64,000 nucleotides of DNA from a virus, in the IMG/VR virus record IMGVR_UViG_3300042691_047309, positions 111,895 through 175,894 of that record. One strand, written 5' to 3'. This document shows positions 5,115 through 62,483 of this stretch, in pieces (position 1 is the first letter of the stretch; each line of letters starts with the position of its first letter). Both the position numbers and the translations under genes were made by a program. Below the pieces are notes generated by a model that saw nothing but the letters and a program-made list of their open reading frames with translations, was not told the DNA's origin and did no database searches.

Positions 5115-5927
5115 ATGAAGTATATTAAAAGATTCAACGAAGAGCTTAAACCAGAAACTTATATTAGTGCTGGTTATAGATTAAAAAATTTACCAGGTGG
5201 TGGAAAAAGAAGATCTTCACCTCTTATTGATTATGGTTTTGGGAAAAAGTATGGTTTCTATAAAATGCACTGGGCTAATGGTTCATCTCTTTTAGGAAAA
5301 GATTTAACATTTACTAATCTAATATGTGAGAGTTACTTTGGGAGACCTGACTCTTCAAAAATTGAGACTTTTAGGTATTCAGCAGAAGATGCTGTGGAAC
5401 TGTGGAAACAAGGTAATCATCCTCTTTGTATGACTTTTAATTTTGTTTTTCAATCTACTGAAGAAACAAAAGATAAATTAAATAGTAGTAGTGAACTTAA
5501 TACCAACTGTCCAATGTTCTCATTTGAGATTTGGTTTAGTAACTGGGAAGAAGGTTTAGATTCTTATAATTGGGATTATGATACTGAAGAGCCAATGACT
5601 GGAGATACCGTAGTTGATTTAAATGGTATGTATAAATGGACTAATGAACTTACAATCTATAAGAAGAAACCTGTTAAAATGTATTACTCAAAATCATATC
5701 CTTTCTGTGGTATATTTTCAGATAGAGCTTCTGCTTTGAAATTCAAAAAAGAATTAAACAGTTTAATGGATCCACATAAAGAAAAAGTTATGGAACTTTT
5801 AAGCTGTGTTAATGCTTCTGCTGACGACATAGAAGATTTTGAAGATAGAATCAATAAAATAAGTTTAAATCATCTTTTCTCAGTTGATGAAAAAACAACC
5901 AATTGGTTCACATACAATGAATTGTAA
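5115..5927 (+). CDS. leader protein, tandem paralog family member 1
   Basis: First of four consecutive paralogs (5115, 5941, 6663, 7527). The 270-residue protein begins MKYIKRFNEELKPETYISAG, the capsid-targeting-like leader followed by the family signature NEEL[KR]x-x-TY. The core is rich in Trp, Tyr and Asp. Near the end is the shared block DRASALKFKKEL. There are no catalytic motifs and no signal peptide. Member 1 differs from the others just after the signature, where a Gly/Lys-rich stretch replaces the usual helix with LGH. Likely a late virion or internal protein. Confidence 0.8.
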   Translation: MKYIKRFNEELKPETYISAGYRLKNLPGGGKRRSSPLIDYGFGKKYGFYKMHWANGSSLLGKDLTFTNLICESYFGRPDSSKIETFRYSAEDAVELWKQGNHPLCMTFNFVFQSTEETKDKLNSSSELNTNCPMFSFEIWFSNWEEGLDSYNWDYDTEEPMTGDTVVDLNGMYKWTNELTIYKKKPVKMYYSKSYPFCGIFSDRASALKFKKELNSLMDPHKEKVMELLSCVNASADDIEDFEDRINKISLNHLFSVDEKTTNWFTYNEL

Positions 5928-5940
5928 ATAAATTAATAAT

Positions 5941-6666
5941 ATGAAACACTTAAAGAAATTTAACGAAGAACTTAGACCACAGACTTATATGTCTGCTGCT
6001 AGAAAATTAGATAAATTAGGTCACCACGATAGAGCAAATGCTTTAAAAGACTGGGCTAAAGAAACTGAGAAAAAAGAAGAAATGATTAAGTGGCAAGACC
6101 GCATACAAGATTATGCTCAGTTTGGAACATTTAAATTGACTATAAAAAATCCAGAAACTAATGAAACATTAACTGGTGATTTTCATTTAGATGTTAATTT
6201 TGATGATTTATCATTTAGTGATGAGCCTGAAAGTGGTATAACTTTCTTCTTAGGTTTAATTCCAACTTCTGAAGATTTAATCTATCAGTATATGGAACTT
6301 TGTCCAGATTATGATTTCGGAAACGGTTTCTTCTGGGGTAAAATCTTTAATTTACAATATGAATTAGGAGATACTGTTGTATTTACTAAGTGGAATATGT
6401 GGGACTATGATGATGAAATGAATGGTAAAATAAATTTTGCTGACAGAGCATCTGCTAACAAGTTCAAGAATTTAATTATACAAATATTTAGTAATCCACA
6501 ATTAGGTTATCCATCTGGATATACCGACGCTGATGACTTATATGAAAAATTAACTAATACTATCTTAGCAGAGAACTCATTCTCTTCTGATTATGGATTT
6601 AAATTAGAAGATGCTGCTGAATACATGAGAACAATTAGTCCAAATTTACTTTCTTCTACACTATGA
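5941..6666 (+). CDS. leader protein, tandem paralog family member 2
   Basis: A 241-residue paralog. It begins MKHLKKFNEELRPQTYMSAA, then has the helix with KLGHHDRANALKDWAK, an acidic Phe/Trp-rich core, and the shared C-terminal block DRASANKFKNLI near residue 166. It follows member 1 by 13 nt and overlaps member 3 by an ATGA. Function unknown. Confidence 0.8.
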   Translation: MKHLKKFNEELRPQTYMSAARKLDKLGHHDRANALKDWAKETEKKEEMIKWQDRIQDYAQFGTFKLTIKNPETNETLTGDFHLDVNFDDLSFSDEPESGITFFLGLIPTSEDLIYQYMELCPDYDFGNGFFWGKIFNLQYELGDTVVFTKWNMWDYDDEMNGKINFADRASANKFKNLIIQIFSNPQLGYPSGYTDADDLYEKLTNTILAENSFSSDYGFKLEDAAEYMRTISPNLLSSTL

Positions 6667-7523
6667 GATACTTAAAAAGATTTAATGAAGAGTTAAAAGC
6701 ATCTACTTACAAAAAAGCAGGTGAGAAATTCACTCAGATGGGTCACAAAAGAAGAGGATCTGAATTATTAGATTATGCAACTCAAGTTGAATTAAAAGAA
6801 AAATATCAAAAATTAAGACAGGCTCAGGATGAAAATAAGGAGTATGGTTTATTTGATATTACGATGACAAGAGGTTATGGGTCAAATAAGAAAGATGTAT
6901 TTTCTGGTAAATTTTATCTACAAATGTGTTTAGAATCTGATTGGTTCAAAGACCAATTATGGGATTGGTTTTATGAAGGTATGGATTGGCATATGGGAAT
7001 TGCTATGGAGTTTGCCATTATACCAGCTGATGACGAAACACTTAGAATGTTGGAAACAAGTGAAGACGGAGATATAGTGTATTTTAGAAATAATACTATG
7101 TGGGGAGATGACTATAGATACTGGACAAATAGACTTTGGCTTACACTCTGTGATAAAAATGCAGTTCCTCTTTATATAGCAGGTGCTGGTGGATTTGAAG
7201 ATAGAGATTCTTTTACATTCCATTTTAATTCAAGATCAGAAGCTATGAAATTTAGAAACTTATTGGCTAATACATTAGAAGGAAAATCTGATTGGGGTTC
7301 TTATAATGGTAGAACGATTTCTGACCAATTAAAATCAACAATTATTATGGATGAAGAAGACTGGAGATCAAAACTAATGGATAAGTTTTTACCGGGTAGA
7401 GAAGATGAATATGATATTAATAATCCAGATACTTGGCCAAAAAATACTTTTACAGAAGATACTTACAAAGGAGCTATCGAGGCGGTTAAGAGAATGTCAG
7501 TAAATGGTTTATATAGAGATTAA
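6663..7523 (+). CDS. leader protein, tandem paralog family member 3
   Basis: A 286-residue paralog beginning MRYLKRFNEELKASTYKKAG, then MGHKRRGSELLDYA, a Trp-rich acidic core, the block SRSEAMKFRNLLANTLEG and the ending VNGLYRD, which matches the NSLYRD end of member 4. Translationally coupled to member 2 (ATGA). Function unknown. Confidence 0.8.
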   Translation: MRYLKRFNEELKASTYKKAGEKFTQMGHKRRGSELLDYATQVELKEKYQKLRQAQDENKEYGLFDITMTRGYGSNKKDVFSGKFYLQMCLESDWFKDQLWDWFYEGMDWHMGIAMEFAIIPADDETLRMLETSEDGDIVYFRNNTMWGDDYRYWTNRLWLTLCDKNAVPLYIAGAGGFEDRDSFTFHFNSRSEAMKFRNLLANTLEGKSDWGSYNGRTISDQLKSTIIMDEEDWRSKLMDKFLPGREDEYDINNPDTWPKNTFTEDTYKGAIEAVKRMSVNGLYRD

Positions 7524-7526
7524 GAG

Positions 7527-8798
7527 ATGAAGTATTTAAAAAGATATGAAGAAGCTGTCGGTGTTAGATTGAAATCAGAATTGAAATCAACAGTTGAAGA
7601 TTTGCTTATTGATTTAAGAGATGATGAATTTGAAACTAAAGTATCTGAAATAGATTATCATTCTCAAAAAGTAAAGGTCAAAGTCAATATACAAAGAGAT
7701 AGAGAATTTACTTATGAAGATATAAAACCTCAAATTGAATCTATTTGGTCTTATTTAAATGAAGAAGGATTTACAATTGAAAACTTCACTAGTGTAGAAG
7801 ACTGGGAAAACTTTGAAGAACCAGAAGACGAATTTACAATTCATCAAAAAGATAAAGGTTATGTGTGGTCCACTGGTGAAGATGGTGAGATTAAATCTAT
7901 TGACAAAGAATTTCAAAGAAGACCAAATGTCATGATTTCACCAATATATAATCCAGAAAACTTTGATAGAATTCAAAAGTGGATATTTGAGATTTCATTT
8001 ACTAAAGATAAAATTGTAGTTGATAGAAAGAGAGGTCATCTTACAACTAATGAAGAGTTAAAACCACAAACATATATAAGTGCTGCTGATAAACTAACTA
8101 AGTTAGGTCATATTAAAAGACCTGAGCAATTAAAATCTTGGGCTGAAACTATTAAGCAAAGAGAAATAGATACTAAACACAAAATGGCTTTAGAAGAAGC
8201 AAAAAAATTAGGACAATTTCAATTAAGATTTGTTGGTAGAGGAAGTGAAATAAGGTTTGCAAACTGTTACATTCAACTTTATTTTAATTCCGATTATTAC
8301 CTAAGTGAGATGTTACCAGAGTGGTTAGATGGTGAGAGAAACACACTTTGGTCACAGTTTATGTTTGGGATTCATCCGGTTTCTTCAGAAGATTTAGAAG
8401 TTTTAAATTGGTTTTCTGGTGATATTAAAGGTTATACAAATAGAGCGAATGGTATAATCTGGTTACAAGATGTTTATATCAATCTGACAAATCAAAACTG
8501 CAAAGATGAAGATGGTGTGACTTTACCTATGACCCCTTCAGGTGTAGTTTCAATCGAATGCTCTGAATTTAGTGAAGTTTATTTTGCAAATAGAAGAGAA
8601 GCTATTAAGTTTAGAAATTTATTAGTCGATCTTTTCGAGGGAGATATAGATTACATACAACCGAATGGTAAAGACTTTAAAGAAGATATAATTGAAACTT
8701 GGTGTGATCATGAAGAAAGACCAGTTGAACTTTCAGAGTTAGAAGATTTTATTGATAAACTTAGAGTAATGAGATTAAATTCATTATATAGAGATTAA
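7527..8798 (+). CDS. leader protein, paralog member 4 with inserted domain
   Basis: A 423-residue protein built differently from its three neighbours. A short leader MKYLKRYEEAVG is followed by about 165 residues not found in the other members. The family signature NEELKPQTYISAADKLTKLG then appears near residue 176, followed by the normal core, the block NRREAIKFRNLLVDLFEG and the end NSLYRD. The family module thus sits behind an inserted or fused domain, with Glu-rich junctions that could be processed. It ends the tandem array. Confidence 0.8.
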   Translation: MKYLKRYEEAVGVRLKSELKSTVEDLLIDLRDDEFETKVSEIDYHSQKVKVKVNIQRDREFTYEDIKPQIESIWSYLNEEGFTIENFTSVEDWENFEEPEDEFTIHQKDKGYVWSTGEDGEIKSIDKEFQRRPNVMISPIYNPENFDRIQKWIFEISFTKDKIVVDRKRGHLTTNEELKPQTYISAADKLTKLGHIKRPEQLKSWAETIKQREIDTKHKMALEEAKKLGQFQLRFVGRGSEIRFANCYIQLYFNSDYYLSEMLPEWLDGERNTLWSQFMFGIHPVSSEDLEVLNWFSGDIKGYTNRANGIIWLQDVYINLTNQNCKDEDGVTLPMTPSGVVSIECSEFSEVYFANRREAIKFRNLLVDLFEGDIDYIQPNGKDFKEDIIETWCDHEERPVELSELEDFIDKLRVMRLNSLYRD

Positions 8799-8814: not shown

Positions 8815-9987
8815 ATGAAAATAAAAAGATATAGACAATTCTTAGAATCAAACTCTAATGATATGTGGAACATTATTCCACAGTCAGTGAAAGATTTGCA
8901 ACAACTTTTTAAATCAAAAGAAAAAAAATTATATGTTGTTGGAGGTGCCGTTAGAGACTTTCTAACAGGAGATACACCAAAAGACTTTGACTTAGCAACT
9001 GATGCACTTCCAGATGAAGTATTAGAAATATTAGGAAGTAAATATAAAACTAACCTACAAGGTAAAGCATTTGGAGTGGTCGTGGTTTTCACCAATGATC
9101 AACCAGAAGGAATGGAGATTGCAACATTCCGAGAAGATGTTTCAAAAGGTAGAAACCCTGAAGTTAAATTAGGAGTTACCATTGAAGATGATGTTAAAAG
9201 AAGAGATTTAACTTATAACGCACTTTTCTATGATTTAGATACTAAAGAGATTGTTGATTTAACTGGAGGACGTGAGCATTTAGCAAAAGGAATAACTCAA
9301 ATGGTTGGTGATCCTATTGAAAGATTTGATGAAGATTCTTTAAGAATTTTGAGAGCTTTTAGATTTGCTTCAAGATATGGACACCCTTTACATAAAGATA
9401 CTGAAGCGGCAATTGAAAAAAGAAAACAATTAGAAAATATAGATCCTGAAACCGGTGAAATGAAAAGAATTTCACAAGAAAGAGTTTGGGAAGAGATGAA
9501 CAAGGCGTGGAAACAAGCAAAAGACTATAGAAACTATTTACAATTCTTTACTAAGTTTGATATGTGGTCTGAAGTTTTTCCAGGCTCTGAAATCAATACC
9601 GATCTGGTTGATAGTAAAGACTTTGTGGTTGTTATTGCTAACTTATTTAAGAATGAAAACACGGATGGTTTAGAAAAGAGATTGGTTCAAGACTACAGAA
9701 TAGATTCTCAAATGGCATCAAAAATAGTTTTCTTAATTAGATTATTAGAATTGACACCAGATACAGCATTTGATTTACATAAGTCAAAATTACAATGTCA
9801 TATTGAAGATAAAACTATTTTAGAATGGTTTAGAGTTTTGGGTGTAAATGATACTGTTAAAATTAAATTTGTAGAATACAAACCAACTACTTCTGCTCAG
9901 GAATTGATGTTACAGGGTTTTAAAGGAAAGGCTTTAGGTGATGAGTTAAAAAGACTTGAAATTGAAAATTTCAAGAAGATTTTATAA
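8815..9987 (+). CDS. CCA-adding enzyme / poly(A) polymerase family nucleotidyltransferase with leader
   Basis: A 390-residue class II tRNA nucleotidyltransferase-type protein. Residues 41-62 hold VVGGAVRD (GG at 43-44, R47-D48) and the metal-binding D57-F-D59. Further on are the RRDLTYNALFYD and ERFDEDSLRILRAFRFASR blocks of the head and neck domains. It would add CCA (or A) to RNA 3' ends, and the two tRNA genes at 20.8 kb lack an encoded CCA. Unusually, the protein starts MKIKRYRQFLESNSND, a capsid-targeting-like leader ahead of the catalytic domain, which raises the possibility of delivery with the virion. It directly follows the paralog array. Confidence 0.9.
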   Translation: MKIKRYRQFLESNSNDMWNIIPQSVKDLQQLFKSKEKKLYVVGGAVRDFLTGDTPKDFDLATDALPDEVLEILGSKYKTNLQGKAFGVVVVFTNDQPEGMEIATFREDVSKGRNPEVKLGVTIEDDVKRRDLTYNALFYDLDTKEIVDLTGGREHLAKGITQMVGDPIERFDEDSLRILRAFRFASRYGHPLHKDTEAAIEKRKQLENIDPETGEMKRISQERVWEEMNKAWKQAKDYRNYLQFFTKFDMWSEVFPGSEINTDLVDSKDFVVVIANLFKNENTDGLEKRLVQDYRIDSQMASKIVFLIRLLELTPDTAFDLHKSKLQCHIEDKTILEWFRVLGVNDTVKIKFVEYKPTTSAQELMLQGFKGKALGDELKRLEIENFKKIL

Positions 9988-20755: not shown

Positions 20756-20840
20756 GGTCGAGTGATGAAATCGGTATACATGACAGACTTAAAATCTGTT
20801 GGGCATTACGCCCGTGCGGGTTCAAGTCCCGCCTCGACTA
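20756..20840 (+). tRNA. tRNA-Leu(UAA)
   Basis: Cloverleaf with a variable arm: acceptor GGTCGAG/CTCGACT (first pair G-U), anticodon stem ACAGA/TCTGT with anticodon TAA, variable arm near GGGCATTACGCCC, T-arm GCGGGTTCAAGTCCCGC. CCA is not encoded. It decodes TTA, the main Leu codon in this window. Confidence 0.93.
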
Positions 20841-20876
20841 CAAATAGGTAATCTTCGGAAATCCTTATAAAAAAAG

Positions 20877-20948
20877 GGTCCCATAGCTTAACGGATAAAG
20901 CCTCGGTTTTCTAAACCGATAATCCAAGTTCGATTCTTGGTGGGATCA
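20877..20948 (+). tRNA. tRNA-Arg(UCU)
   Basis: Acceptor GGTCCCA/TGGGATC (one G-U), anticodon arm TCGGT-TTTCTAA-ACCGA with anticodon TCT, T-arm CCAAGTTCGATTCTTGG. CCA is not encoded. It decodes AGA, the main Arg codon here. Confidence 0.93.
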
Positions 20949-20954
20949 CAAAAA

Positions 20955-28315: not shown

Positions 28316-28329
28316 TTATATATTAAAAA
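28316..28329 (-). promoter_or_regulatory. TTTTTAATATATAA box, minus strand
   Basis: Same box as at 5084 and 61081. It overlaps the last codons of the TonB receptor gene and serves 28250-28312 and the leader gene behind it. Confidence 0.5.
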
Positions 28330-31112
28330 TTATATTTGAAAGAAAGACTTATTGATTGACCAAAGTTTATTTCCTGCCATCTATTGTCACCAGATGTATA
28401 TTTTCTATTACCATCTAAATCTTGAAATAAAATCAAATCTTGAGATATAATATCTTTGATATTCAGTTTAAGCTCACAATTTTTAATTGTCTTAGAAATT
28501 TGTAAATCAATTACATTTCTACCATTTTCCCAAACAGATGGCTCTTGAACATTACCAACTATATAAATCCTTTGGCCTATTAGGTTGTATGAAATTGTCG
28601 CTGTGAAATCCTTTTTAGGGGATGTGTAAAATAAACCAGAATTTATTATAAAAGGTGATTGTCCCTGTAGAGGTCTATTTTCAGATCCATGAAAACCTTC
28701 TAAATTAACTTCAGACTTAATAAGTGATGCATTTGTGTATATTGATAGATTTTCAAATTTACTGGATATAAATTTTAAATTAGTTCTCATTTCAATCTCT
28801 GCTCCGAAATTTCTACTTGACTTAGCATTCATGTAATACAATTCTGGAGAACCTGAAGTTCCCGTTCTGTTTATCAACTCTATTGGGTTTATGAATTTTT
28901 TATAGAAACCGGATACTGAAATCATTTGACCACTTTTAGGAAACCACTCCCATCTTAAATCTAAATTATCAATGGTTGCTCTCTCTAATTTAGGATTTCC
29001 AGAAACTATGTTGTCTAAAACAAAGTTATAAAAACTAAATGGTGCTAATTCTCTAAACTCTGGTCTCGAAACTGACTTGAAGTAAGCCGCTCTTATTTTC
29101 ATTTTATCAGTTAGTGAATAGATTAAATTCAATGAAGGTAAAACATCAATAACAGTTGTATCAATTGTCTTTTTTAAGTTACTTCCGAATTCAACATAAT
29201 TAAACTTCTGACTGTAAGACTCAACTCTCACTCCTGTAACAAATCTGAAATTGTTTATTTTTGAATCTGTCATTAGAAATCCAGAGTTGAGAAATGAATT
29301 CGCTGAGTAAGAGTCATCGACATTTGTCGCTTCATCTAATTTGAATCCACCTGTTCCATCGGATAAAAGACCCATATTTTGTTGTGAGAAGATTTCACTC
29401 GCTGGAAGTAAAAGTAACTGTGAGTTGAAATACGAACCTTGTGGTTTATATTGAGAAAATCCAAAGTTTCTTGATATAAATTCTTTGTCTCTAAATTGAT
29501 GCCATCCTCCGAGTTTAATCTCATTTTCTAATTTTGATATATTGACCGGTATTATATAATCATAATTCAAAGACCATATATTTTCACCTGATTTAGACCA
29601 AAACATATTACCAGCAGCTGTTGGAATAGTTCCATTTGATTGTATGACAGCCGCGTATTGTTGAGTCGTATCATCTTCGTATAAAGAGTATTTTCTATAA
29701 ACTATTCTTCTTAAATTCGGAATATCTCTTATAACATTTGAATATCCAATATTCCAATTGAATACGGTTTTTTTAATATCGTGTTTTCCAGATAACTGAT
29801 TTGTTAAAATATTATTTTGTGTTAGCCAAAAATTAGTGGATTTTTCCCATTGACGAGGATCATTATCCATTTCACGAACACCGTTTCTAACATTTATTCT
29901 ATCTTCAGAGTTTATTGAATATAAAGATTTCAACTTAATGTTGTTTTTTTGATTAATTTTTAGACTCAAATTCAATAAGTTAGTAAATAATATATTTTTT
30001 GTAAAAACCGAATCTTTTAATTCCATTTTCGTAATTACACCTGAAGCTTGTTCTTCAAAATCTCGCCTGATTGAATTATTCATTGATTCAACATTTTGAT
30101 AAGATGTAGCAAAAATAAGACCTAATTTTGTGTCTTTTTTTAATTTAATTTCTTTACCAATGGTCCATTGTAAAGTTCCACCTGGAAGAGCTAATCTTTG
30201 ATTAGTGGTCCAGTTCCAATTCATCAGTTTAGAATAGTCAGCTCTCTGATTTTTATCAGTTAATAACCAGTCTTCTATTGTTGGTATTCCATCTGGTAGA
30301 TTTCTTGATTTACCAGCAATTCCTAAAAATTCTAAACCAGAATTTTTATTATAATTAAAGTTTCTAAAAGTAGAGATTGTGTTATAATTTAAACCTAAAC
30401 TTAGATTATGTATAACCTTAGCATCAAGTGTTGATACATTTATCACACCACCTGCAAACTCACCAGGTAGGTCTGGAGAACCCGATTTATAAATGACTAA
30501 ATTGTCTAATATATTTGAAGGAAATATATCAAAAGAAAAAGCTCTTTTGTCAGATTCGGTCGATGGTAGAGGACTTCCATTTATAAGTCCAAAATTATAT
30601 CTATCATTAAGTCCTCTTATGATAACGAATTTGTTTTCCTGTATTGAAGCTCCTGAAACTCTTTTAAATACATCAGTAGCTTTAGAATCAGGTGTTTTTT
30701 TAAATTGTTCTGATGTCACTCCATCTAAAGAAACTGCTGATTTATTTTGCATTCTTATAATTTCAGAAGTTGATCCTTTATCAACCGTCATAGTGACTGT
30801 CACTCCCTCAAGCTCCTGTGTTTTAGATTCTAAACTTACAACTATTGAAGTGTCGGAATTTATAGATAATTCTATTAACTTATTTTGATACCCGATATAT
30901 CTGAACTCAATTCTATTAACACCTTTAGATAGATTAATTTTGAAATTACCATCATAATCTGTTCTAGTCCCTGTTTGTTGATTAATTATATATACTGTTG
31001 CACCAAAAAGTGACTCACCTGATTGAGAGTCACTAATGGTTCCAGTTAGTGTTTGTGAAAATGTGTAATAAGAAATAAATAATAATACTACACTTAAAAA
31101 TAAATTTCTCAT
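28323..31112 (-). CDS. TonB-dependent outer-membrane receptor
   Basis: A 929-residue receptor, full length: signal peptide 1-19, CarboxypepD_reg-like domain about 22-100 (GTISDSQSGESLFGATVYI), plug about 120-235 (with FVIIRGLNDRYNFGLINGSP), then a 22-strand-type barrel ending in Phe (SLSFKYNF). Such proteins import scarce nutrients across the outer membrane with TonB energy. It overlaps the upstream T9SS gene by ATGA, forming one operon. A complete receptor in a lytic phage is very unusual; it could boost nutrient uptake during infection or alter the surface to block rival phages. Confidence 0.93.
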   Translation of the reverse strand: MRNLFLSVVLLFISYYTFSQTLTGTISDSQSGESLFGATVYIINQQTGTRTDYDGNFKINLSKGVNRIEFRYIGYQNKLIELSINSDTSIVVSLESKTQELEGVTVTMTVDKGSTSEIIRMQNKSAVSLDGVTSEQFKKTPDSKATDVFKRVSGASIQENKFVIIRGLNDRYNFGLINGSPLPSTESDKRAFSFDIFPSNILDNLVIYKSGSPDLPGEFAGGVINVSTLDAKVIHNLSLGLNYNTISTFRNFNYNKNSGLEFLGIAGKSRNLPDGIPTIEDWLLTDKNQRADYSKLMNWNWTTNQRLALPGGTLQWTIGKEIKLKKDTKLGLIFATSYQNVESMNNSIRRDFEEQASGVITKMELKDSVFTKNILFTNLLNLSLKINQKNNIKLKSLYSINSEDRINVRNGVREMDNDPRQWEKSTNFWLTQNNILTNQLSGKHDIKKTVFNWNIGYSNVIRDIPNLRRIVYRKYSLYEDDTTQQYAAVIQSNGTIPTAAGNMFWSKSGENIWSLNYDYIIPVNISKLENEIKLGGWHQFRDKEFISRNFGFSQYKPQGSYFNSQLLLLPASEIFSQQNMGLLSDGTGGFKLDEATNVDDSYSANSFLNSGFLMTDSKINNFRFVTGVRVESYSQKFNYVEFGSNLKKTIDTTVIDVLPSLNLIYSLTDKMKIRAAYFKSVSRPEFRELAPFSFYNFVLDNIVSGNPKLERATIDNLDLRWEWFPKSGQMISVSGFYKKFINPIELINRTGTSGSPELYYMNAKSSRNFGAEIEMRTNLKFISSKFENLSIYTNASLIKSEVNLEGFHGSENRPLQGQSPFIINSGLFYTSPKKDFTATISYNLIGQRIYIVGNVQEPSVWENGRNVIDLQISKTIKNCELKLNIKDIISQDLILFQDLDGNRKYTSGDNRWQEINFGQSISLSFKYNF

Positions 31113-32671
31113 TTATTGATAGTTATCGTTTTTGTAATATCTCCTACTTTTACAAAGTAGATTCCACTTGATAAATTTGATAAATTAATATAAGAGTCAT
31201 TAGTAGAGATTAAATTCTTACCTAAATTATCTGATATCGAGACTATAACATTTCTGTCTGACTTGATATTTATGTAATCAGTAGCAGGATTTGGATAAAC
31301 AACTACATCTGAATTAGAAATTTCAGAAACAGTCAAAAATCCACCTTGAAATTTAGGGTTGGTGAAGTCAGCTCCTGTTGATACTGTAGAATTATTATTT
31401 AGTCTGAAATCTGGATTATTTGAAAAAGCATCAACCCAAGAAATTTGATCTATTGATTTAGTAGTATCATTTGAATTCTGATTAAAAAATGTTGAATAAA
31501 ATTGTGTAGTAGCTGTTACTAAATTAAATCCGGTTGTGAATTCAACTAAATCATTATTTGCGAAAACTAAATTTCCATTTGATATATTTGTTTCAACTGG
31601 TAATCCTTCAATTGATAGCCCCTTTTCCCAACCAGTAACTAAAGAGTTAAATATTGAAATTGAAGAGTTTCTTCTTATTCTGAAAGATTTCTCAAATTTC
31701 TCACCAACTGGAAGTTGAATACTACCATCACCTTTTGGTCCTATGATTGTGAAGTTTGAAAATATAGCCGATGTTTGTGGTGTATTTGATGAACCTTGAG
31801 CATCATTGTCTGATTCAAAACAATTTGAATCACCCGCAGCATCTGATAAATATTGAGTTCTTATTGATAATCCAAATTGAACTTTTCCTCTATATCCAAA
31901 ATCAGTATCGAAATCATCATCAGTTCCTTTAAAAGCAATCAAGTGTCTGCAATTAACAGTTCCGCCAAACCATTCAAATGAATCATCTCCTGAAAAAGAA
32001 ACTTGAACGAAATCAACTTCTGTTTCACTACCTACGGATCCAAAAGTCAAACCATTTATTTCTTTGTTAGGCTCTAGTGCAATTCCTGCAAATTCTATTC
32101 TAACATATTTTAATATTCCCGAATTGTCTAAGTCATTACTTCCACCATACTCGGTATTGGAAGTTGGTGAAATTCCTTCAATATTTGCAACTCCACCAGG
32201 TTGGTTATTAGTTGCTTGTCCTAAGATCACCAGACCACCCCAATCACCTTCAGCTCTTAGACCGACATTTTGTGAAGAAGTGAAAACTATTGGATTTGTT
32301 GATGTGCCTTCTGCTATTATTTTTGAGCCTTTTGTTATAATCAAACTACCTTGAGTGGAACCATCTCCTCTGATTATAGTTCCTGGTAGAATTGTTAATA
32401 CTGCTCCATTTTTAACATAAACTTTATTTTCTAATAGAACTACTCCAGAGATGGTTGTATTTGTAGTAATATCGTTATTTAAGGTTGAAGTAATTTGAGG
32501 ATAATAGGTATTTTCAGGATCGAAATTTGACCAACCATCTGTCCAGTCTGTCTGAGATGTTCCATCTGTCACCGGAAATGCTCCTTTATAGCTTGTTGAT
32601 GTCCAAAATGCTTGCTGACTTAATAACAAATTAGAAATGCAAATTGTAATTAATGTAATTAATTTTTTCAT
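31109..32671 (-). CDS. secreted protein with T9SS type A sorting domain
   Basis: A 520-residue protein: signal peptide 1-19, a beta-helix-like body with repeated I-x-G/V-x-L strands and Asn/Asp-rich turns (about 60-420), and a C-terminal type IX secretion sorting domain (from VVYPNPATDYINIKS to the end KTITINK). It would be exported by the host T9SS and attached to or released from the surface. Operon partner of the TonB receptor, so it may capture its substrate. Homologous pairs are chromosomal in Bacteroidota; host origin is likely. Confidence 0.9.
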   Translation of the reverse strand: MKKLITLITICISNLLLSQQAFWTSTSYKGAFPVTDGTSQTDWTDGWSNFDPENTYYPQITSTLNNDITTNTTISGVVLLENKVYVKNGAVLTILPGTIIRGDGSTQGSLIITKGSKIIAEGTSTNPIVFTSSQNVGLRAEGDWGGLVILGQATNNQPGGVANIEGISPTSNTEYGGSNDLDNSGILKYVRIEFAGIALEPNKEINGLTFGSVGSETEVDFVQVSFSGDDSFEWFGGTVNCRHLIAFKGTDDDFDTDFGYRGKVQFGLSIRTQYLSDAAGDSNCFESDNDAQGSSNTPQTSAIFSNFTIIGPKGDGSIQLPVGEKFEKSFRIRRNSSISIFNSLVTGWEKGLSIEGLPVETNISNGNLVFANNDLVEFTTGFNLVTATTQFYSTFFNQNSNDTTKSIDQISWVDAFSNNPDFRLNNNSTVSTGADFTNPKFQGGFLTVSEISNSDVVVYPNPATDYINIKSDRNVIVSISDNLGKNLISTNDSYINLSNLSSGIYFVKVGDITKTITINK

Positions 32672-32820: not shown

Positions 32821-32832
32821 TCTAATATATAA
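32821..32832 (+). promoter_or_regulatory. TCTAATATATAA box
   Basis: TCTAATATATAA ends 3 nt before the ATG at 32836; variant of the TTTAATATATAA box. Confidence 0.45.
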
Positions 32833-32835
32833 CCT

Positions 32836-33180
32836 ATGAAACTTGACATAAATGAAGTATATCATAACTATATTGTTAGAGTGGTAATTTTTTCACTCTT
32901 CACTTATAAGAGATTAGTTAGGCAGCCAAATGTATATAAACAATCTGTTCTTTCGTTTGTGACTAAAAGAGTTGCATGGAAAATACATCTTGTTATAGAT
33001 ACTGGTCTTCAAATGTCAAAAGATGAAGAAAGAGATATAGTATTAAATGAGTTACTCGAAGGAATTGAATCTGATTATCTAACAACAGTAACTGTTACTT
33101 TTACAACACCACTTAAAGAAATAACAATAGAGGTTGATTTAAAAGATGAAGATAAATACCAAAACTTTCTGTACTTATAA
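32836..33180 (+). CDS. hypothetical protein
   Basis: Unrecognised 114-residue protein with a basic, hydrophobic N-terminal half (VVIFSLFTYKRLVRQ) and an acidic beta-rich C-terminal half. One weak hydrophobic stretch (14-22) is too short for a clear membrane helix. First gene of a late-type transcript that continues with the cyclase. Confidence 0.7.
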   Translation: MKLDINEVYHNYIVRVVIFSLFTYKRLVRQPNVYKQSVLSFVTKRVAWKIHLVIDTGLQMSKDEERDIVLNELLEGIESDYLTTVTVTFTTPLKEITIEVDLKDEDKYQNFLYL

Positions 33181-33192
33181 TTTAATATATAA
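33181..33192 (+). promoter_or_regulatory. TTTAATATATAA box
   Basis: Perfect copy of the box, directly after the preceding stop codon and 3 nt before ATG 33196. Confidence 0.55.
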
Positions 33193-33195
33193 AGT

Positions 33196-33867
33196 ATGAA
33201 ATATTTAAGTAATTGGAAACAAATAAATGAAGCTGATAATCAACTAACTGAAGAAACACCAAGTAGATCTGGTAGAGTATTAACTCAAGCTCAGCGAGAG
33301 TGGAATGATGATTCTTCTATAGAAAGAGGTGATAATTTACCTTCAGTTCTCTTTACTGATGTTGAGGGATCTTCTGAAAAATGGTCAAGTGATGCTGTAA
33401 CAATGATGGAGCAATTGAAAGGACATCATGAGTTAGTTAATAGAATTTCTAAAAAGTATAACGGATGGATTGTTAAAACAATAGGAGATGCTTTTATGAT
33501 ATATTTTGAACCAAATACTGATTCACTAACAAATGCAATTAAATGTGGTAAAGAGATAATTTTGTCTGAAAAAAACTATAATTTAAGAGTTGGGGTTTGC
33601 CAGGGTCCGATGCAAGAAGATACTTATGAGTTACAAAAGGTAACTCTAAGAGATTTTTATGGTAACTCTATAAATGTTGCATCTAGAATGGAGTCTAAAA
33701 TCGCAGAAGCTGCCGGTTATATTGCTTTTACATCACTTGAGCCAATTAGTAAAAATATTATATCTCAGTATAGTAAAACAATTGGTGAGGTTTTAGATGT
33801 TGATTTAAGTAAATTTGATCTAAAAGGAGCTAAAACCGAATCTGCTTATAGAATAAAAGTAAAATGA
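33196..33867 (+). CDS. class III nucleotidyl cyclase with capsid-targeting-like leader
   Basis: A 223-residue protein. Leader MKYLSNWKQINEADNQ (possible I-N-E cut), a linker to about 47, then one complete class III cyclase catalytic domain. Metal-binding D55 in FTDVEGS and D98 in TIGDAFM; K94 and D153 fit the adenine-selecting Lys/Asp pair; N160 and R164 in GNSINVASRM are the transition-state residues. It should work as a homodimer making cAMP (or another cyclic NMP, as in Pycsar cyclases). No membrane or receptor domain. A packaged cyclase could flood the cell with signal on entry; this is inference. Confidence 0.9.
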   Translation: MKYLSNWKQINEADNQLTEETPSRSGRVLTQAQREWNDDSSIERGDNLPSVLFTDVEGSSEKWSSDAVTMMEQLKGHHELVNRISKKYNGWIVKTIGDAFMIYFEPNTDSLTNAIKCGKEIILSEKNYNLRVGVCQGPMQEDTYELQKVTLRDFYGNSINVASRMESKIAEAAGYIAFTSLEPISKNIISQYSKTIGEVLDVDLSKFDLKGAKTESAYRIKVK

Positions 33868-33904: not shown

Positions 33905-34120
33905 ATGTTTATCTGTGTTAGTAATACATCAAATAGAAGTGAATTAGAAATAGGAAAATACTATGACTTATTTAAACATGAGCAACACCCAAAAGTTGTT
34001 TGGGTAAAAATACCCGATTCATCTAATACTGTTGGTTACAGAACTATTCAATGTTATTTAGCTGACTTTAAAAATAAAGGTCAATGGAGAAATGATCAGA
34101 TTGATAAGATTTTAGATTAA
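33905..34120 (+). CDS. small SH3-like protein with conserved tail
   Basis: A 71-residue protein with the pattern F-I-C-V-S-N...L-x-x-G-K-Y-Y, a predicted small beta barrel related to those at 48656 and 48910. It ends GQWRNDQIDKILD, the recurring tail. Function unknown. Converges with the kinase gene (4-nt overlap). Confidence 0.7.
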   Translation: MFICVSNTSNRSELEIGKYYDLFKHEQHPKVVWVKIPDSSNTVGYRTIQCYLADFKNKGQWRNDQIDKILD

Positions 34121-35451
34121 TCTTCCCAAAAGAAATAGACAAACTTATCTGGCCATCTGTAATCAAAGTGTGCAAAACCATATAACTCTGCAACTCTTTC
34201 TAATCTATCATCAGTATTTCTTGGAAGTTCTCCGTCATACTCGATTGAGTCAAATTCAACATAAACATTATCATCATGTTCTGTGACATCTAAAATATGT
34301 AAGCCAGTATGATGTTCGAAATTGGACCTGAACTCATTGGTATCAAATTTCTTTTCACCAACTCTTTCGTCTTTCTTTTTGAATTTAAAATCAATTGTGT
34401 GAAATTTAATATCTGTTTGTTCACCTTCACTTGAATAAGGCTCGAATTTCACTAAAGACCAACCTAAATCTGAAAGTCTAGCAATTACCACTTGCATTTC
34501 ATCACAAATTCTAACAAAGTCTTCATAGGTCTTAAATTTATCATTTTTAAAGAATCTTATAAAAAACTGAGAAACCAAAACACCGCTACTCATTTTTATT
34601 TGTGGTTGGAAACTGGTATCACCATCTAAATATTGTTGATAAGTAATACCACCACCATGTGATATAAATTTTATATCATATCCATCATCAATAAAATCTA
34701 GCATAGTATCAACTATTTGTGAAGTAACATCTTTGTTATCAACACTTTCTTTAATGACGTATCTGTCATTCTTTCTAATTGCTAACTTACCATCAATAAA
34801 TTTATAAAACTTATATTTCTTATCAATTGATGTTACTAAATAATATGCATCTGGATTAAGTGCTTTATATCTTTGAATATTACCTTCTACTTTAACTCCA
34901 TCAACTTCACCACCCTGTTGTTTAGCATAAGCCCATTGAATATAGTGTGGATCAACGTGACGTGATCTTAAAGCATCTTGGTCAATAGAGGTTTGTAAAG
35001 TAGAAAGTAAATGAATGAATATTATTTTATATTTATTTTGTCTAGCATTATCATAAATCTCTTTTATGTGTTCATATCCTTTATCTGTGAATTCTTTTCC
35101 AGCACCAGTTGTGTCATAGATAAAGTTTTGACCAGTTTCCATAAACTCCATCATTCTTAGAAGATTTAATTCAGAAGCATTCTTAGTTCTACCACCTTCT
35201 TTTTTTTCTCTACCTCTGTAATAAACATTTGGATCTTTTGTAAAAAGAAGTGAAACATCATCAGTTGAGAAGTCTTTAATGTTTCTATTTTTAGTATGAA
35301 TATGATTTTTAACAAAGTAAGACTTTCCGATACCTGGTGCTCCAATCAAGAAGATAGCTAGTCCTCTACTCATTCCAATGATTTCTGGAATCGGCTCGTT
35401 TTTAGAAACTTCTTCTAAAATAAATTGGTTATATTCCTTAATAAATTTCAT
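34117..35451 (-). CDS. P-loop kinase (zeta-toxin-like) with capsid-targeting-like leader
   Basis: A 444-residue protein: leader MKFIKEYNQFILEEVSKNE (I-L-E cut site), then a kinase domain with Walker A G37-A-P-G-I-G-K-S44, an STDDVSLLF stretch and FIYDTTGAGKEF, as in zeta-toxin/polynucleotide-kinase-type P-loop kinases. The C-terminal half (about 245-444) is an unrelated mixed domain. Zeta kinases phosphorylate UDP-sugars or other small substrates and are toxic. Packaging with the virion would allow early action; substrate unknown. Confidence 0.8.
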   Translation of the reverse strand: MKFIKEYNQFILEEVSKNEPIPEIIGMSRGLAIFLIGAPGIGKSYFVKNHIHTKNRNIKDFSTDDVSLLFTKDPNVYYRGREKKEGGRTKNASELNLLRMMEFMETGQNFIYDTTGAGKEFTDKGYEHIKEIYDNARQNKYKIIFIHLLSTLQTSIDQDALRSRHVDPHYIQWAYAKQQGGEVDGVKVEGNIQRYKALNPDAYYLVTSIDKKYKFYKFIDGKLAIRKNDRYVIKESVDNKDVTSQIVDTMLDFIDDGYDIKFISHGGGITYQQYLDGDTSFQPQIKMSSGVLVSQFFIRFFKNDKFKTYEDFVRICDEMQVVIARLSDLGWSLVKFEPYSSEGEQTDIKFHTIDFKFKKKDERVGEKKFDTNEFRSNFEHHTGLHILDVTEHDDNVYVEFDSIEYDGELPRNTDDRLERVAELYGFAHFDYRWPDKFVYFFWED

Positions 35452-47347: not shown

Positions 47348-48240
47348 CAAACATTTTAGATGGAAGAATCGTATCAGGTCAAATTTTATCCAATATCAAA
47401 GATAAAATCGAAGGTCACATAGAAAAAAGCCAATCAAGATTAGGATATCAAATTTCAAAACCATCTATGGCGATAGTTCTTGTTGGAAATAATCCAGCAT
47501 CTGAGTCTTATGTCAATGGAAAAACAAAAGCTTGTGAAAAAGCTGGAATAAACTATAGTGTTATTAGATTTCCAGAAAAAATAACCTCATTTGATCTTTT
47601 AGAAGAAGTAAAAAGATTAAATAAGTCTTCTTATGATGGATTTATTGTTCAACTTCCATTACCAGAACACATTAAGTCGGATTCTATTATAAACGAGATA
47701 AGTGCATATAAAGACATTGATGGATTTCATCCTCTTAACTTTGGTAAAATGTCACTTGGTCAGAAGTCAATGAGACCAGCAACTGCTTATGGTATATTAA
47801 AACTAATCGAATGGTATGAAATTGACACTAAAGGAAAACATGTCGTAGTTATTGGTCGCTCTAATATTGTCGGGAAACCTATTTCTATTATGTTAGGTAA
47901 CGACTTTAACATTGGAAGAGCTACCGTTACATCTTGTGATATAAACACTCCTAAAGAACTCCTAATTGAAGAAACTAAGAAAGCTGATATAGTAATTGTT
48001 GCAGTTGGAAAACCTGGTTTATTAACAGCTGATATGATTAAAGAAGGAGTGGTTGTGATTGATGTAGGTATCAATAGATTAGAATCTGGTAAATTAGTTG
48101 GTGATTGTGATTTTGATTCTATTTCTAAGAAGGCTTCTTGGATTACTCCAGTACCAGGTGGTGTTGGACCAATGACTATATCTGGTTTGATTTTGAATAC
48201 TTATGAGGCTTGGAAGATGAAAAATTTTATTGAAGAATAA
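47335..48240 (+). CDS. folD: methylenetetrahydrofolate dehydrogenase/cyclohydrolase
   Basis: A 301-residue, full-length FolD: substrate site SYVNGKTKACEKAGI (catalytic Lys region), DGFIVQLPLP, KDIDGFHPLN, the NADP site VVVIGRSNIVGKP, and PVPGGVGPMT. It interconverts 5,10-methylene- and 10-formyl-THF. With DHFR at 52774 it supports one-carbon supply for dTMP and purine synthesis during replication. Confidence 0.95.
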   Translation: MQTLANILDGRIVSGQILSNIKDKIEGHIEKSQSRLGYQISKPSMAIVLVGNNPASESYVNGKTKACEKAGINYSVIRFPEKITSFDLLEEVKRLNKSSYDGFIVQLPLPEHIKSDSIINEISAYKDIDGFHPLNFGKMSLGQKSMRPATAYGILKLIEWYEIDTKGKHVVVIGRSNIVGKPISIMLGNDFNIGRATVTSCDINTPKELLIEETKKADIVIVAVGKPGLLTADMIKEGVVVIDVGINRLESGKLVGDCDFDSISKKASWITPVPGGVGPMTISGLILNTYEAWKMKNFIEE

Positions 48241-49498: not shown

Positions 49499-51262
49499 AT
49501 GAATGTATTAAGAGGTGGTGAGTTTTTGATTAAAGAATCAAACTGTGATGAAACTTTTATACCAGAAGAGTTTAATGAAGAGCAATTGATGATTGCTGAG
49601 ATGTGTGAAGACTTCATCGAAACAGAAGTTTATCCTAATCTAGATAGAATCGATTCAATGGAAGATGGTCTGATGGTTTCTATTTTGGACAAAGCTGGTG
49701 AATTAGGATTATTAAGCATTTCAATCCCTGAAGAACTAGGTGGAATGGGTTCCGACTTTGTAACTTCAATGATTACAACTGAAAAAACTGGAACTGGTCA
49801 CTCTGCGGCTGTTGCACTTTCAGCTCACACTGGAATTGGAACTTTACCAATACTATACTTTGGAAGTGATGAACAAAAATTAAAGTATATTCCAAAATTA
49901 GCCACTGGTGAATTAAAGGCTTGTTATTGCTTGACAGAGCCAAATGCGGGTAGTGATGCTAATAGTGGAAAAACCAAAGCGGTGTTGAATGGTGATAAGT
50001 CTAAATATCTAATCACAGGACAAAAAATGTGGATAACAAACTCGGGGTTTGCTGATATATTTGTTGTTTTTGCTAAAATTGATGATGATAAAAATCTATC
50101 AGCATTTATTGTTGAAAAAGAATATTCAGGTATTTCTTTAAATCCTGAGGAAAAGAAAATGGGTATTAAAGGTTCTTCAACTCGACAAGTATTCTTTAAT
50201 AACTGTGAAGTTCCGGTGAAAAATTTACTTGGTAAAAGAGAAGATGGTTTTAAAATTGCACTTAATATTCTCAATATCGGTAGAATTAAATTAGCAGGAG
50301 CTACACTTGGTTCATCTAAAAAGGTCATCGAAGATACAATTAAGTATTCGCTTGAAAGAGAACAGTTTGGAAGACCAATTGCTAAATACTCTGCGATAAA
50401 AAATAAAATTGCAAATCAAATTATTAAAACATACGCATCAGAATCAGCGCTATATAGAGTATCAAAAAATATTGATGACTTAATCAACCAATCAATTGCT
50501 AATGGTAAAACTAAATCCGAATCATTACTAGATGCTATTAAAGAATATGCTTCTGAAGCAGCTATGTTAAAAGTACATGGCTCTGAAACATTGGATTATG
50601 TAGTAGATGAAGGAGTTCAGGTATATGGTGGTATGGGGTATTCCGCAGAGGCTCCTATGGATAGAGCATATAGAGATTCGAGAATTAATAGAATATTTGA
50701 AGGGACAAATGAGATTAACAGAATGTTATCAGTTGATTTTATACTAAAAAAGGCAATGAAAGGTGAATTAGATTTAATGTCACATGCTACAAAGATAGCT
50801 GGTGATTTGATGTCTATTCCGGATTTTTCAACTGAAGAAGAATCAACCTTTGATAAACATAAAAAATATATCAAAAACTTTAAGAAGATATTATTAATGA
50901 TAGCAGGGGCTGCTGTGCAGAAATTAATGATGACTTTATCAAAAGAACAAGAGATACTAATGAATCTATCTGATATTATGATTGAAACATACGTATCCGA
51001 ATCTCTTTTACTAAGAGTTGAAAAATTAGTAAAACTAAGAGGTGAAGAAAACTGCCAGTATGAAATTGAAATTATGAAGAGTTATATTTATGATGCTTCT
51101 GATAAAATTAACAAATTAGGAAAAGATACACTAAATTCATTTTCATCAGGTGATGATTTAAGAATAATGTTAATGGGTTTGAAAAGATTTACAAAACAAG
51201 ATCCTTTTAATATTACAAAGTCTAAAAGACTTATCTCTGAAGTTGCAATGAGTAAAAACTAA
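49499..51262 (+). CDS. acyl-CoA dehydrogenase
   Basis: A 587-residue, full-length enzyme of the large Bacteroidota type. FAD/substrate blocks CYCLTEPNAGSDA and KMWITNSG, the C-terminal domain YSLEREQFGRPI, and QVYGGMGYSAEAPMDRAYRD followed by RIFEGTNEI with the expected catalytic Glu at 401. It oxidises acyl-CoA in fatty-acid beta-oxidation, passing electrons to ETF. About 150 extra helical residues follow the core. It sits inside the phage metabolic operon. An auxiliary gene that could release energy or remodel lipids; beta-oxidation genes are rare in phages. Confidence 0.93.
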   Translation: MNVLRGGEFLIKESNCDETFIPEEFNEEQLMIAEMCEDFIETEVYPNLDRIDSMEDGLMVSILDKAGELGLLSISIPEELGGMGSDFVTSMITTEKTGTGHSAAVALSAHTGIGTLPILYFGSDEQKLKYIPKLATGELKACYCLTEPNAGSDANSGKTKAVLNGDKSKYLITGQKMWITNSGFADIFVVFAKIDDDKNLSAFIVEKEYSGISLNPEEKKMGIKGSSTRQVFFNNCEVPVKNLLGKREDGFKIALNILNIGRIKLAGATLGSSKKVIEDTIKYSLEREQFGRPIAKYSAIKNKIANQIIKTYASESALYRVSKNIDDLINQSIANGKTKSESLLDAIKEYASEAAMLKVHGSETLDYVVDEGVQVYGGMGYSAEAPMDRAYRDSRINRIFEGTNEINRMLSVDFILKKAMKGELDLMSHATKIAGDLMSIPDFSTEEESTFDKHKKYIKNFKKILLMIAGAAVQKLMMTLSKEQEILMNLSDIMIETYVSESLLLRVEKLVKLRGEENCQYEIEIMKSYIYDASDKINKLGKDTLNSFSSGDDLRIMLMGLKRFTKQDPFNITKSKRLISEVAMSKN

Positions 51263-61124: not shown

Positions 61125-62483
61125 ATGAAATGGATCAGAGGTTATCAACTTTTTAAAGAATCAAAGACTTATGCTAACAAAAACATTATTAGTGAGATTT
61201 GCATCTCTATGGTTCTATTGAATAATGAATTTCTTGACTCAATATTAGATAGAGGACTAAAAGCTAGGTATTCTGAGAATTCTCAGATATTTTTAACAGA
61301 CTTAAAGAATTTACTTCTTGCTAAGAATAGACTTGAGTTAGGTAAATTTGTGGATGGTAAATGTGTAACAGATGATGAGGTTTCTAAAATAAACGGTGGA
61401 TTCGATGAGATAGATTTTGATATTGAAAAAGATTGGAATATACTTTTAAATGCTAGATTAGCTGCTCGTAGTATTATTGATAAACTACTCCCAGATCAAA
61501 AACTTGAATCTGAAATGATTTCAAAAGTTTATTGGTTAGGTCCTAATAAAGACAACGAAAACAAAGAAGATATTGTTTTAGAACTAAAAGACGGGAAACA
61601 ATTTTCATTTTACATAAATAAAAGTTTAAGTAGTCAAAAGAGCTCTTCTTTTAATACATTCGCTGAAGACTTATTAGGATCTAATTTAGAAAAACTATAT
61701 TCAGAAGAGTATTTACCAAAATGGGATAAATTAGTACAACAATGGATTAAAATAATTTATGAAAATTCTAATAAAAATATTCAAAGACATATAGAAAATT
61801 TCATTGATCCAAATAGAATAGATACTATGAAATATTTTGAATACTTTGATATTAGACACAGTGATCCTAAATTTAAACATTTAGGTGAGTTTATTGATGA
61901 GTTTAGTAAGAACATTTTAAAATTTGACGAACTACTTAATGAAGTTTGGAAAAACAAAGAAAGATGCTTTGTTGATGTCGATAGAGTTGAAAAAGATTGG
62001 AATGAAACAAAGATAGTTATTCTAAACTCAAAAATATTAGAGAACTTATTTACAAACTCGCTCAAAACTCAATTTCCAGAAGATATCAAAAAAGTTGATG
62101 ATAATTTTAAAGAAGCCGCTGGTACTGTTAAAATGAAATTTATTAAAACAGTTGTTGATAAAATGGGTTGCTTAGAAAGACCAATTTACTATGTCGGTAC
62201 AGGAGGTAAAGATTTTAATCTATTACCATCGAGAGAGTTCTTTAGAGAGAACTATGATAATTTACAACTATTATTTGACTACCACGTAAACTTTGAAATA
62301 AGTCAATTAGACAATGACTTTAAAATTAAATTGATACTTAATTTCGAAAATGAAAAACTAATCGAAATGGACATCATTATTAAATTTAGTGGAAGTGAGT
62401 TATCTGGAAAACTTAGTTCAAAATACAGGTATGAAATTCCTGCAAATTTTAACTATCTAGTCTCAAAGAATATCTTAGATTAA
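61125..62483 (+). CDS. leader protein, possible PD-(D/E)XK relative
   Basis: A 452-residue protein with leader MKWIRGYQLFKESKTY (F-K-E cut site). D149-I-V-L-E-L, then K155-D-G-K, and K166 at the end of the following strand (EDIVLELKDGKQFSFYINKS) resembles the D...x-x-K strand pair of PD-(D/E)XK proteins, as in the leader protein at 11719. The remainder is helical and charged. Activity uncertain. Confidence 0.7.
   Translation: MKWIRGYQLFKESKTYANKNIISEICISMVLLNNEFLDSILDRGLKARYSENSQIFLTDLKNLLLAKNRLELGKFVDGKCVTDDEVSKINGGFDEIDFDIEKDWNILLNARLAARSIIDKLLPDQKLESEMISKVYWLGPNKDNENKEDIVLELKDGKQFSFYINKSLSSQKSSSFNTFAEDLLGSNLEKLYSEEYLPKWDKLVQQWIKIIYENSNKNIQRHIENFIDPNRIDTMKYFEYFDIRHSDPKFKHLGEFIDEFSKNILKFDELLNEVWKNKERCFVDVDRVEKDWNETKIVILNSKILENLFTNSLKTQFPEDIKKVDDNFKEAAGTVKMKFIKTVVDKMGCLERPIYYVGTGGKDFNLLPSREFFRENYDNLQLLFDYHVNFEISQLDNDFKIKLILNFENEKLIEMDIIIKFSGSELSGKLSSKYRYEIPANFNYLVSKNILD

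Follow-up and report, generated by a model that had tools for sequence, protein, structure and literature searches.

A class III cyclase gene in a probable huge-phage contig

The window, a stretch of DNA of 64,000 nucleotides, covers positions 111,895-175,894 of a virus record of 175,894 bp. It holds a gene for a 223-residue protein (Table 1) which had been read, from the letters alone, as a class III nucleotidyl cyclase. This assignment holds, since the protein matches PF00211 with an E-value of 2.7e-15 (56.9 bits against the Pfam cut-off of 21.9) and the predicted structure, which is a class III cyclase fold, agrees. The AlphaFold model has a mean pLDDT of 75.5, is confident from about residue 48 and mostly reaches 80-95 in the catalytic domain, and its best Foldseek match is 5oyh (E 2.6e-12, TM-score 0.75 by target length). 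The catalytic residues named in the same reading are all present and correctly numbered (Table 1), and the Lys/Asp pair that it pointed to, K94 and D153, is indeed of the ATP type typical of adenylate cyclases, which predicts ATP as the substrate. Among solved sequences, those nearest to the protein are the trypanosome GRESAG 4 cyclases.

The contig of the window was compared with LR745206.1, an uncultured phage genome of 634,780 bp whose sequence was left out of the structure prediction. The two are syntenic: 138 of the 234 open reading frames of the 176-kb contig match LR745206, and their order is mostly conserved. A survey of huge phages assigned genomes of more than 634 kb to the Mahaphage clade and predicted Bacteroidetes as their hosts (PMC7162821). 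Because of this placement and the synteny with LR745206, the contig most likely represents part of the genome of a huge phage of Bacteroidota.

Several other genes of the contig were recorded. Directly upstream of the cyclase and the 114-residue gene before it, the minus strand of the window encodes two proteins, a TonB-dependent receptor of 929 residues and a secreted protein of 520 residues that carries a type IX secretion sorting domain (28323-32671); the pair is absent from the corresponding place in LR745206, which has a distant homologous pair elsewhere (77454-81294). These phages have kept a trio of PrkA kinase, DUF444 and SpoVR genes that is familiar from bacteria (contig 70988-77343; 8948-13750 in L048, one of the cyclase loci introduced below). 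The window also holds a full acyl-CoA dehydrogenase gene (49499-51262), which scores 762 bits with the NCBIfam FadE model against a cut-off of 600.

Table 1. Features of the window, with their positions in it, and leaders of the related phage cyclases; a slash marks the predicted cut
Feature	Position	Strand	Remarks
Four consecutive leader-bearing genes, starts 5115, 5941, 6663, 7527	5115..8798	+	leader 17-19 bits each
Leader-bearing poly(A) polymerase/CCA-adding-type enzyme (MKIKRYRQFLES)	8815..9987	+	PF01743 E 3.6e-30; leader 11.5 bits
tRNA genes Leu (taa) and Arg (tct)	20756..20949		
TAATATATA, 4 nt before the 114-aa gene	32823..32831	+	
114-aa gene, function unknown, 15 nt upstream of the cyclase	32836..33180	+	58% identity to LR745206 counterpart, same order
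Late-promoter-like motif TAATATATA, 4 nt before cyclase ATG	33183..33191	+	same element before LR745206 cyclase
Class III nucleotidyl cyclase gene, 223 aa	33196..33867	+	ATG start, in-frame stop
Capsid-targeting-like leader MKYLSNWKQINE	33196..33231	+	leader model; E12 invariant in 11 homologues
D55 codon, first metal-binding Asp	33358..33360	+	invariant in 11 phage homologues
K94 codon, adenine-selecting Lys	33475..33477	+	invariant in 11 phage homologues
D98 codon, second metal-binding Asp	33487..33489	+	invariant in 11 phage homologues
D153 codon, adenine-selecting Asp	33652..33654	+	invariant in 11 phage homologues
N160 codon, transition-state Asn	33673..33675	+	invariant in 11 phage homologues
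R164 codon, transition-state Arg	33685..33687	+	invariant in 11 phage homologues
Leader-bearing P-loop protein, polynucleotide-kinase-like (MKFIKEYNQFILEE)	34117..35451	-	PHROG 505 E 2.6e-5; leader 14.3 bits
Leader-bearing 452-aa protein (MKWIRGYQLFKES)	61125..62483	+	leader 14.4 bits; retained in LR745206 orthologue
LR745206 cyclase leader			MQHLDKYKYFQINE/A
L048 cyclase leader			MKHINNFRLFE/A
L003 cyclase leader			MKSFKEFINE/S
L052 cyclase leader			MKTFIEFINE/S
L053 cyclase leader			MRWINDFRVFE/S
L056 cyclase leader			MRWINEFKIFE/A
L057 cyclase leader			MKIINKFNIFE/A
L058 cyclase leader			MKRISGFRLFE/A
L059-L064 cyclase leader			MERIDRFNVFE/A
L065 cyclase leader			MKWINEFKFFE/S

Phage homologues of the cyclase

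One search of viral contigs gave 19 cyclase loci (referred to here by L numbers) which, together with the window and LR745206, represent 11 distinct proteins; the other phage cyclases are 42-57% identical to that of the window. Pairwise dN/dS values among the homologues lie between 0.08 and 0.35, a codon pattern that shows purifying selection on the cyclase. The gene is an accessory one, with only one clear match among 50,697 phage records; weak matches were two Acinetobacter phage records annotated cyaA and the fecal phage clone MT838110. In a genome scan, 3 query sequences found no cellular relatives and 11 query sequences did. When they were placed in one tree with 68 homologues from cells, the phage cyclases formed a single group (support 100/100) on a long stem, which suggests a long-established phage lineage and not a recent capture. 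The group has no close cellular relative within this sample, which was picked by motif and may have missed closer kin.

A capsid-targeting-like leader

In phage T4, the internal proteins IPI-IPIII and Alt carry a capsid-targeting sequence, are cut by gp21 and are injected. The window cyclase begins MKYLSNWKQINE/AD, with a predicted prohead-protease cut after codon 12 (INE/A), so that of the 16 N-terminal residues first said to match a packaging leader only residues 1-12 make up the leader proper. We scored N-termini with a leader model trained solely on LR745206 leaders, the LR745206 cyclase being excluded. At 4 bits or more it picked out 44 of the 234 N-termini of the window's contig, where about 4 are expected from shuffles; of the decoys, 5 of the 729 internal Met positions and 36 of the 2,340 shuffled N-termini reached this score. 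The model also recognised the capsid-targeting sequence of T4 IPIII (8.6 bits). The window cyclase leader scores 6.3 bits and, because one of the 729 internal Met positions and 11 of the 2,340 shuffled decoys score as high, it is, taken alone, a middling, moderately strong member; the LR745206 cyclase leader, which is longer, receives only 0.7 bits with the same model.

The family as a whole gives a much stronger sequence pattern than the window leader by itself. The motif [ILVF]xE[AS] occurs near residues 7-17 in all 11 phage cyclases (related proteins and not 11 independent trials), against a background frequency of 1.7% at other N-termini and 2.3% in internal stretches. Judged by these patterns, the leader is real and more than chance. 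The L003 leader is comparable to T4's MKTYQEFIAE/A, the 10-residue IPIII propeptide annotated in X04567.1, in which positions 4 and 7 drive targeting and positions 8 and 10 processing (PMC9026906), and it fits this register exactly. Short leaders suffice for packaging and delivery in T4 (PMC9026906, PMC5694885). In the AlphaFold model the leader region has low confidence and is probably disordered; the phage cyclases also share a conserved N-terminal segment, RS.R.L...Q. Among the matches listed, cellular cyclase homologues have no leader and many start no more than about 10 residues before the catalytic domain, on which grounds the predicted leader is a phage addition.

Head machinery in relatives

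LR745206 encodes a T4-type portal (PF07230, 2.7e-57), a head maturation protease (PHROG 207, 4.7e-30) and a gp23-type major capsid protein (MCP; PF07068, 1.8e-26) in genes near one another, and a T4-type head module is also present in G004, the contig of an L053-type cyclase. The protease was assigned by PHROG 207 and by its position adjoining the MCP gene; with Pfam S77 it scored under the curated cut-off. Neither PF03420 nor PF07068 was found in the window's own contig, a 176-kb fragment, and protease, portal and MCP were seen in the relatives instead. The MCP N-terminus of LR745206 includes YAEFHSINE/NAY, where a cut is predicted, and that of G004 is alike; the MCP propeptide thus appears to end in INE in both, a motif that it has in common with the window cyclase leader.

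The protease reading frame runs on into repeats such as NIAYSEYIAENLDK, which are present in both LR745206 and G004; a leader-like core occurs in it 11 times where 0.16 copies are expected. The fusion of a prohead protease to about 11 such repeats of 14 residues spans 198546-200669 in LR745206 and 5217-7370 in L153. These repeats are possible docking sites for cargo, and we infer that the leaders load cargo by imitating them. Small proteins made up largely of the YSEY-type repeats of the protease tail are encoded at 47375-47542 of the contig and at 460435-460686 of LR745206.

A late-promoter-like motif before the cyclase

The element that precedes the cyclase of the window and of LR745206 (Table 1) occurs 191 times in LR745206, 152 of these in the 6.5% of the genome that is intergenic, and mostly 0-9 or 15-29 nt before gene starts. 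It lies upstream of 41 of 123 leader genes versus 101 of 786 others in LR745206 (p 9e-8), and of 11 of 41 versus 18 of 193 in the window's contig (p 0.004). The cyclases L053-L065 have TTATATATA at the corresponding place, and close variants precede the portal, protease and MCP genes of G004. The L003 and L052 cyclases have ATAAATA 4 nt before the ATG, close to the T4 late promoter TATAAATA (PMC1524935), while the L048 cyclase is without such a motif and overlaps the end of another leader-bearing gene. Position and gene class point to a late-promoter role for TAATATATA, and a translation element is possible; since there are two preferred distances from the starts, we favour the promoter. As a late promoter at these distances the element would imply many leaderless mRNAs. 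These motifs suggest that the cyclase is transcribed late together with the head genes, and their relation to the head-gene motifs argues against expression only as an early, non-virion protein.

Gene neighbourhoods

The cyclase gene occupies at least three different neighbourhoods. The first, partly rearranged, is that of the window, LR745206 and L048; in the second (L053-L065) about 2-3 kb separate the cyclase from the portal gene downstream of it; and in the third (L003 and L052) tail and gp32-like genes stand among small leader-bearing genes. We looked for a general partner gene and found none in these settings: the 114-residue upstream gene is kept only in the window and LR745206, and a 71-residue downstream gene only in the window and L048-L050. 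By this comparison of gene order, leader and enzyme have moved together and with no constant partner gene.

Proposed packaging and injection of the cyclase

From the cyclase family and active site, the leader, the T4-type head module of the relatives and the late-type motif we infer a course of packaging, cleavage, injection, activity and effect. The cyclase would be transcribed late in infection with the head genes, and its 12-residue leader would bind the core of the prohead, where it probably imitates the YxEY[IL]AEN repeats that the prohead protease carries. The same protease would then cut the leader off after E12 (INE/A), and the mature form, beginning ADNQLTEETPSR, would remain in the head beside the DNA and enter the next cell at injection. 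There, as a homodimer, it would convert host ATP to cAMP in the first minutes. The cAMP may act on cyclic-nucleotide receptors of the host, shifting host transcription or a nucleotide-gated defence; the host is named here because the phages yielded no receptor domain. We consider it likely that the phage packages an adenylate cyclase via the scaffold, which the prohead protease cleaves and which makes cAMP in the host after injection. Since every phage relative found carries the leader, these phages may inject a signalling enzyme.

In the 176-kb contig, LR745206 and the other contigs searched there is no cNMP-binding domain (PF00027), whereas such a domain turned up in 10 of 14 control genomes, Bacteroides ihuae among them; the cAMP receptor, if any, is therefore probably the host's. 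Bacteroides ihuae gave no PF00211 match. Little is known of cAMP signalling in Bacteroidota, for which the cyclase, if injected, would be a test case. Raising host cAMP, one of the two purposes suggested in the sequence-only reading, is possible, and signalling via host receptors would be the most likely purpose.

The main alternative, which we regard as unlikely, is that the packaged cyclase serves counter-defence: its product would jam a cyclic-nucleotide defence such as Pycsar, or its reaction would drain the substrate of one. Packaging would run through the same steps and only the purpose would differ, and the accessory nature of the gene, noted above, is in its favour. We know of no competition by other cyclic nucleotides at PycTIR. 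Cargo often serves counter-defence, as do the internal proteins that T4 injects as anti-restriction factors (PMC12373910); against this, PycTIR is not activated by other cyclic nucleotides up to 1 mM (PMC11224242), and the cyclase is without specificity residues of the Pycsar type. The purpose against Pycsar proposed in the sequence-only reading thus found no specific backing, as the specificity residues differ from the ones in PycC and the search of these phages for a cyclic-nucleotide receptor gene had no hit.

Slightly less probable is an active adenylate cyclase made and acting inside the infected cell, with a leader-like N-terminus that is not for packaging. The middling score of the window leader would agree with this, as would the adenylate cyclase genes of pelagiphage curli clusters, for which the available text of PMC9599517 reports no packaging. 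Three observations speak against it: all 11 homologues, from unrelated neighbourhoods, carry a leader with a cleavage-type site, the listed cellular homologues have no such leader, and the late-type motif is related to head-gene motifs. A dead or decaying cyclase domain retained as a structural head protein is very improbable: the long stem branch towards the cellular cyclases would suit it, but the six catalytic residues are invariant despite divergence elsewhere to 42% identity, and dN/dS is low (0.08-0.35). Least credible of all is a phage-borne Pycsar-like cyclase making cUMP or cCMP, for example to exclude rival phages, since its PADLOC matches to PycC are weak (E 3.6e-6 with the L003 protein and 0.033 with that of the window) and would be expected of any class III cyclase, the pyrimidine-selecting positions read F53, K94 and I96 instead of F/R/Q (CTP, EaPycC) or Y50, D94 and R97 (UTP, BcPycC), and neither the 176-kb contig nor LR745206 has a cNMP-binding domain as a paired cyclic-pyrimidine receptor, nor is there a conserved effector neighbour.

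Relation to known systems

The putative injected cyclase resembles T4 IPI-IPIII and Alt in its short N-terminal leader with aromatic positions that ends in [LI]xE/A or S, in having an enzyme as cargo (T4 Alt is an ADP-ribosyltransferase), in the T4-type portal, MCP and protease (here in relatives) and in the late-type motif before the gene. In T4, Alt and the internal proteins reprogram the host or block restriction (PMC9026906, PMC12373910). Here, unlike in T4, the cargo is a class III cyclase, the protease continues into a leader-like repeat region, and leader-bearing genes are far more numerous, about 40 in 176 kb.

With the class III adenylate cyclases trypanosome GRESAG 4, Mycobacterium avium Ma1120 and Spirulina CyaC the protein shares the fold, the six catalytic residues and the ATP-type K/D pair; it differs from them in being a stand-alone 223-residue protein with no sensor domain, in its leader and RS.R.L...Q segment and in belonging to a separate phage clade. 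PycC of Pycsar is of the same superfamily, with other specificity residues and a paired receptor gene that was not found here. In principle the cyclase, if injected, would also be like the ExoY-type bacterial toxins, as a cyclase delivered into a target cell; the cyclase class of those toxins differs from class III, delivery route and target differ as well, and we do not claim membership. If the packaging reading is true, phages inject a second-messenger enzyme. Bacterial toxins are known to use this tactic on animal cells, and as far as we could see no case has been described of phages using it on bacteria.

Delivery of a cyclase by a phage had been put forward as a new strategy. This claim had to be trimmed, since phage-borne adenylate cyclase genes are already reported in pelagiphage curli (T8SS) clusters (PMC9599517). 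There the gene is part of a curli cluster, whereas here it stands singly and has a packaging leader, and the phages are huge phages of Bacteroidota and T4-like phages. The literature searched held no class III cyclase with a packaging leader conserved across phages, so that the packaging leader on an adenylate cyclase appears to be new.

Other leader-bearing proteins

If the packaging reading is true, the cyclase is one of about 40 candidate injected proteins in the 176-kb contig, and a reading rule of leader, cleavage site and late motif would predict the injected proteome of uncultured huge phages. Because a CCA/poly(A)-polymerase-type protein, whose leader is retained in its LR745206 orthologue, and a polynucleotide-kinase-like protein carry the leader (Table 1), RNA-repair enzymes may be injected too. 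More broadly, we lean, with some reserve, towards a modular cargo system in huge Bacteroidota phages, in which a leader mimicking the scaffold-protease repeats, borne by dozens of unrelated proteins, would load the head with enzymes; one of these, the adenylate cyclase, would reset second-messenger signalling of the host from the start of infection, before any phage gene is expressed. A leader is also found on an Asp/Glu racemase-like protein (contig 61465-62238).
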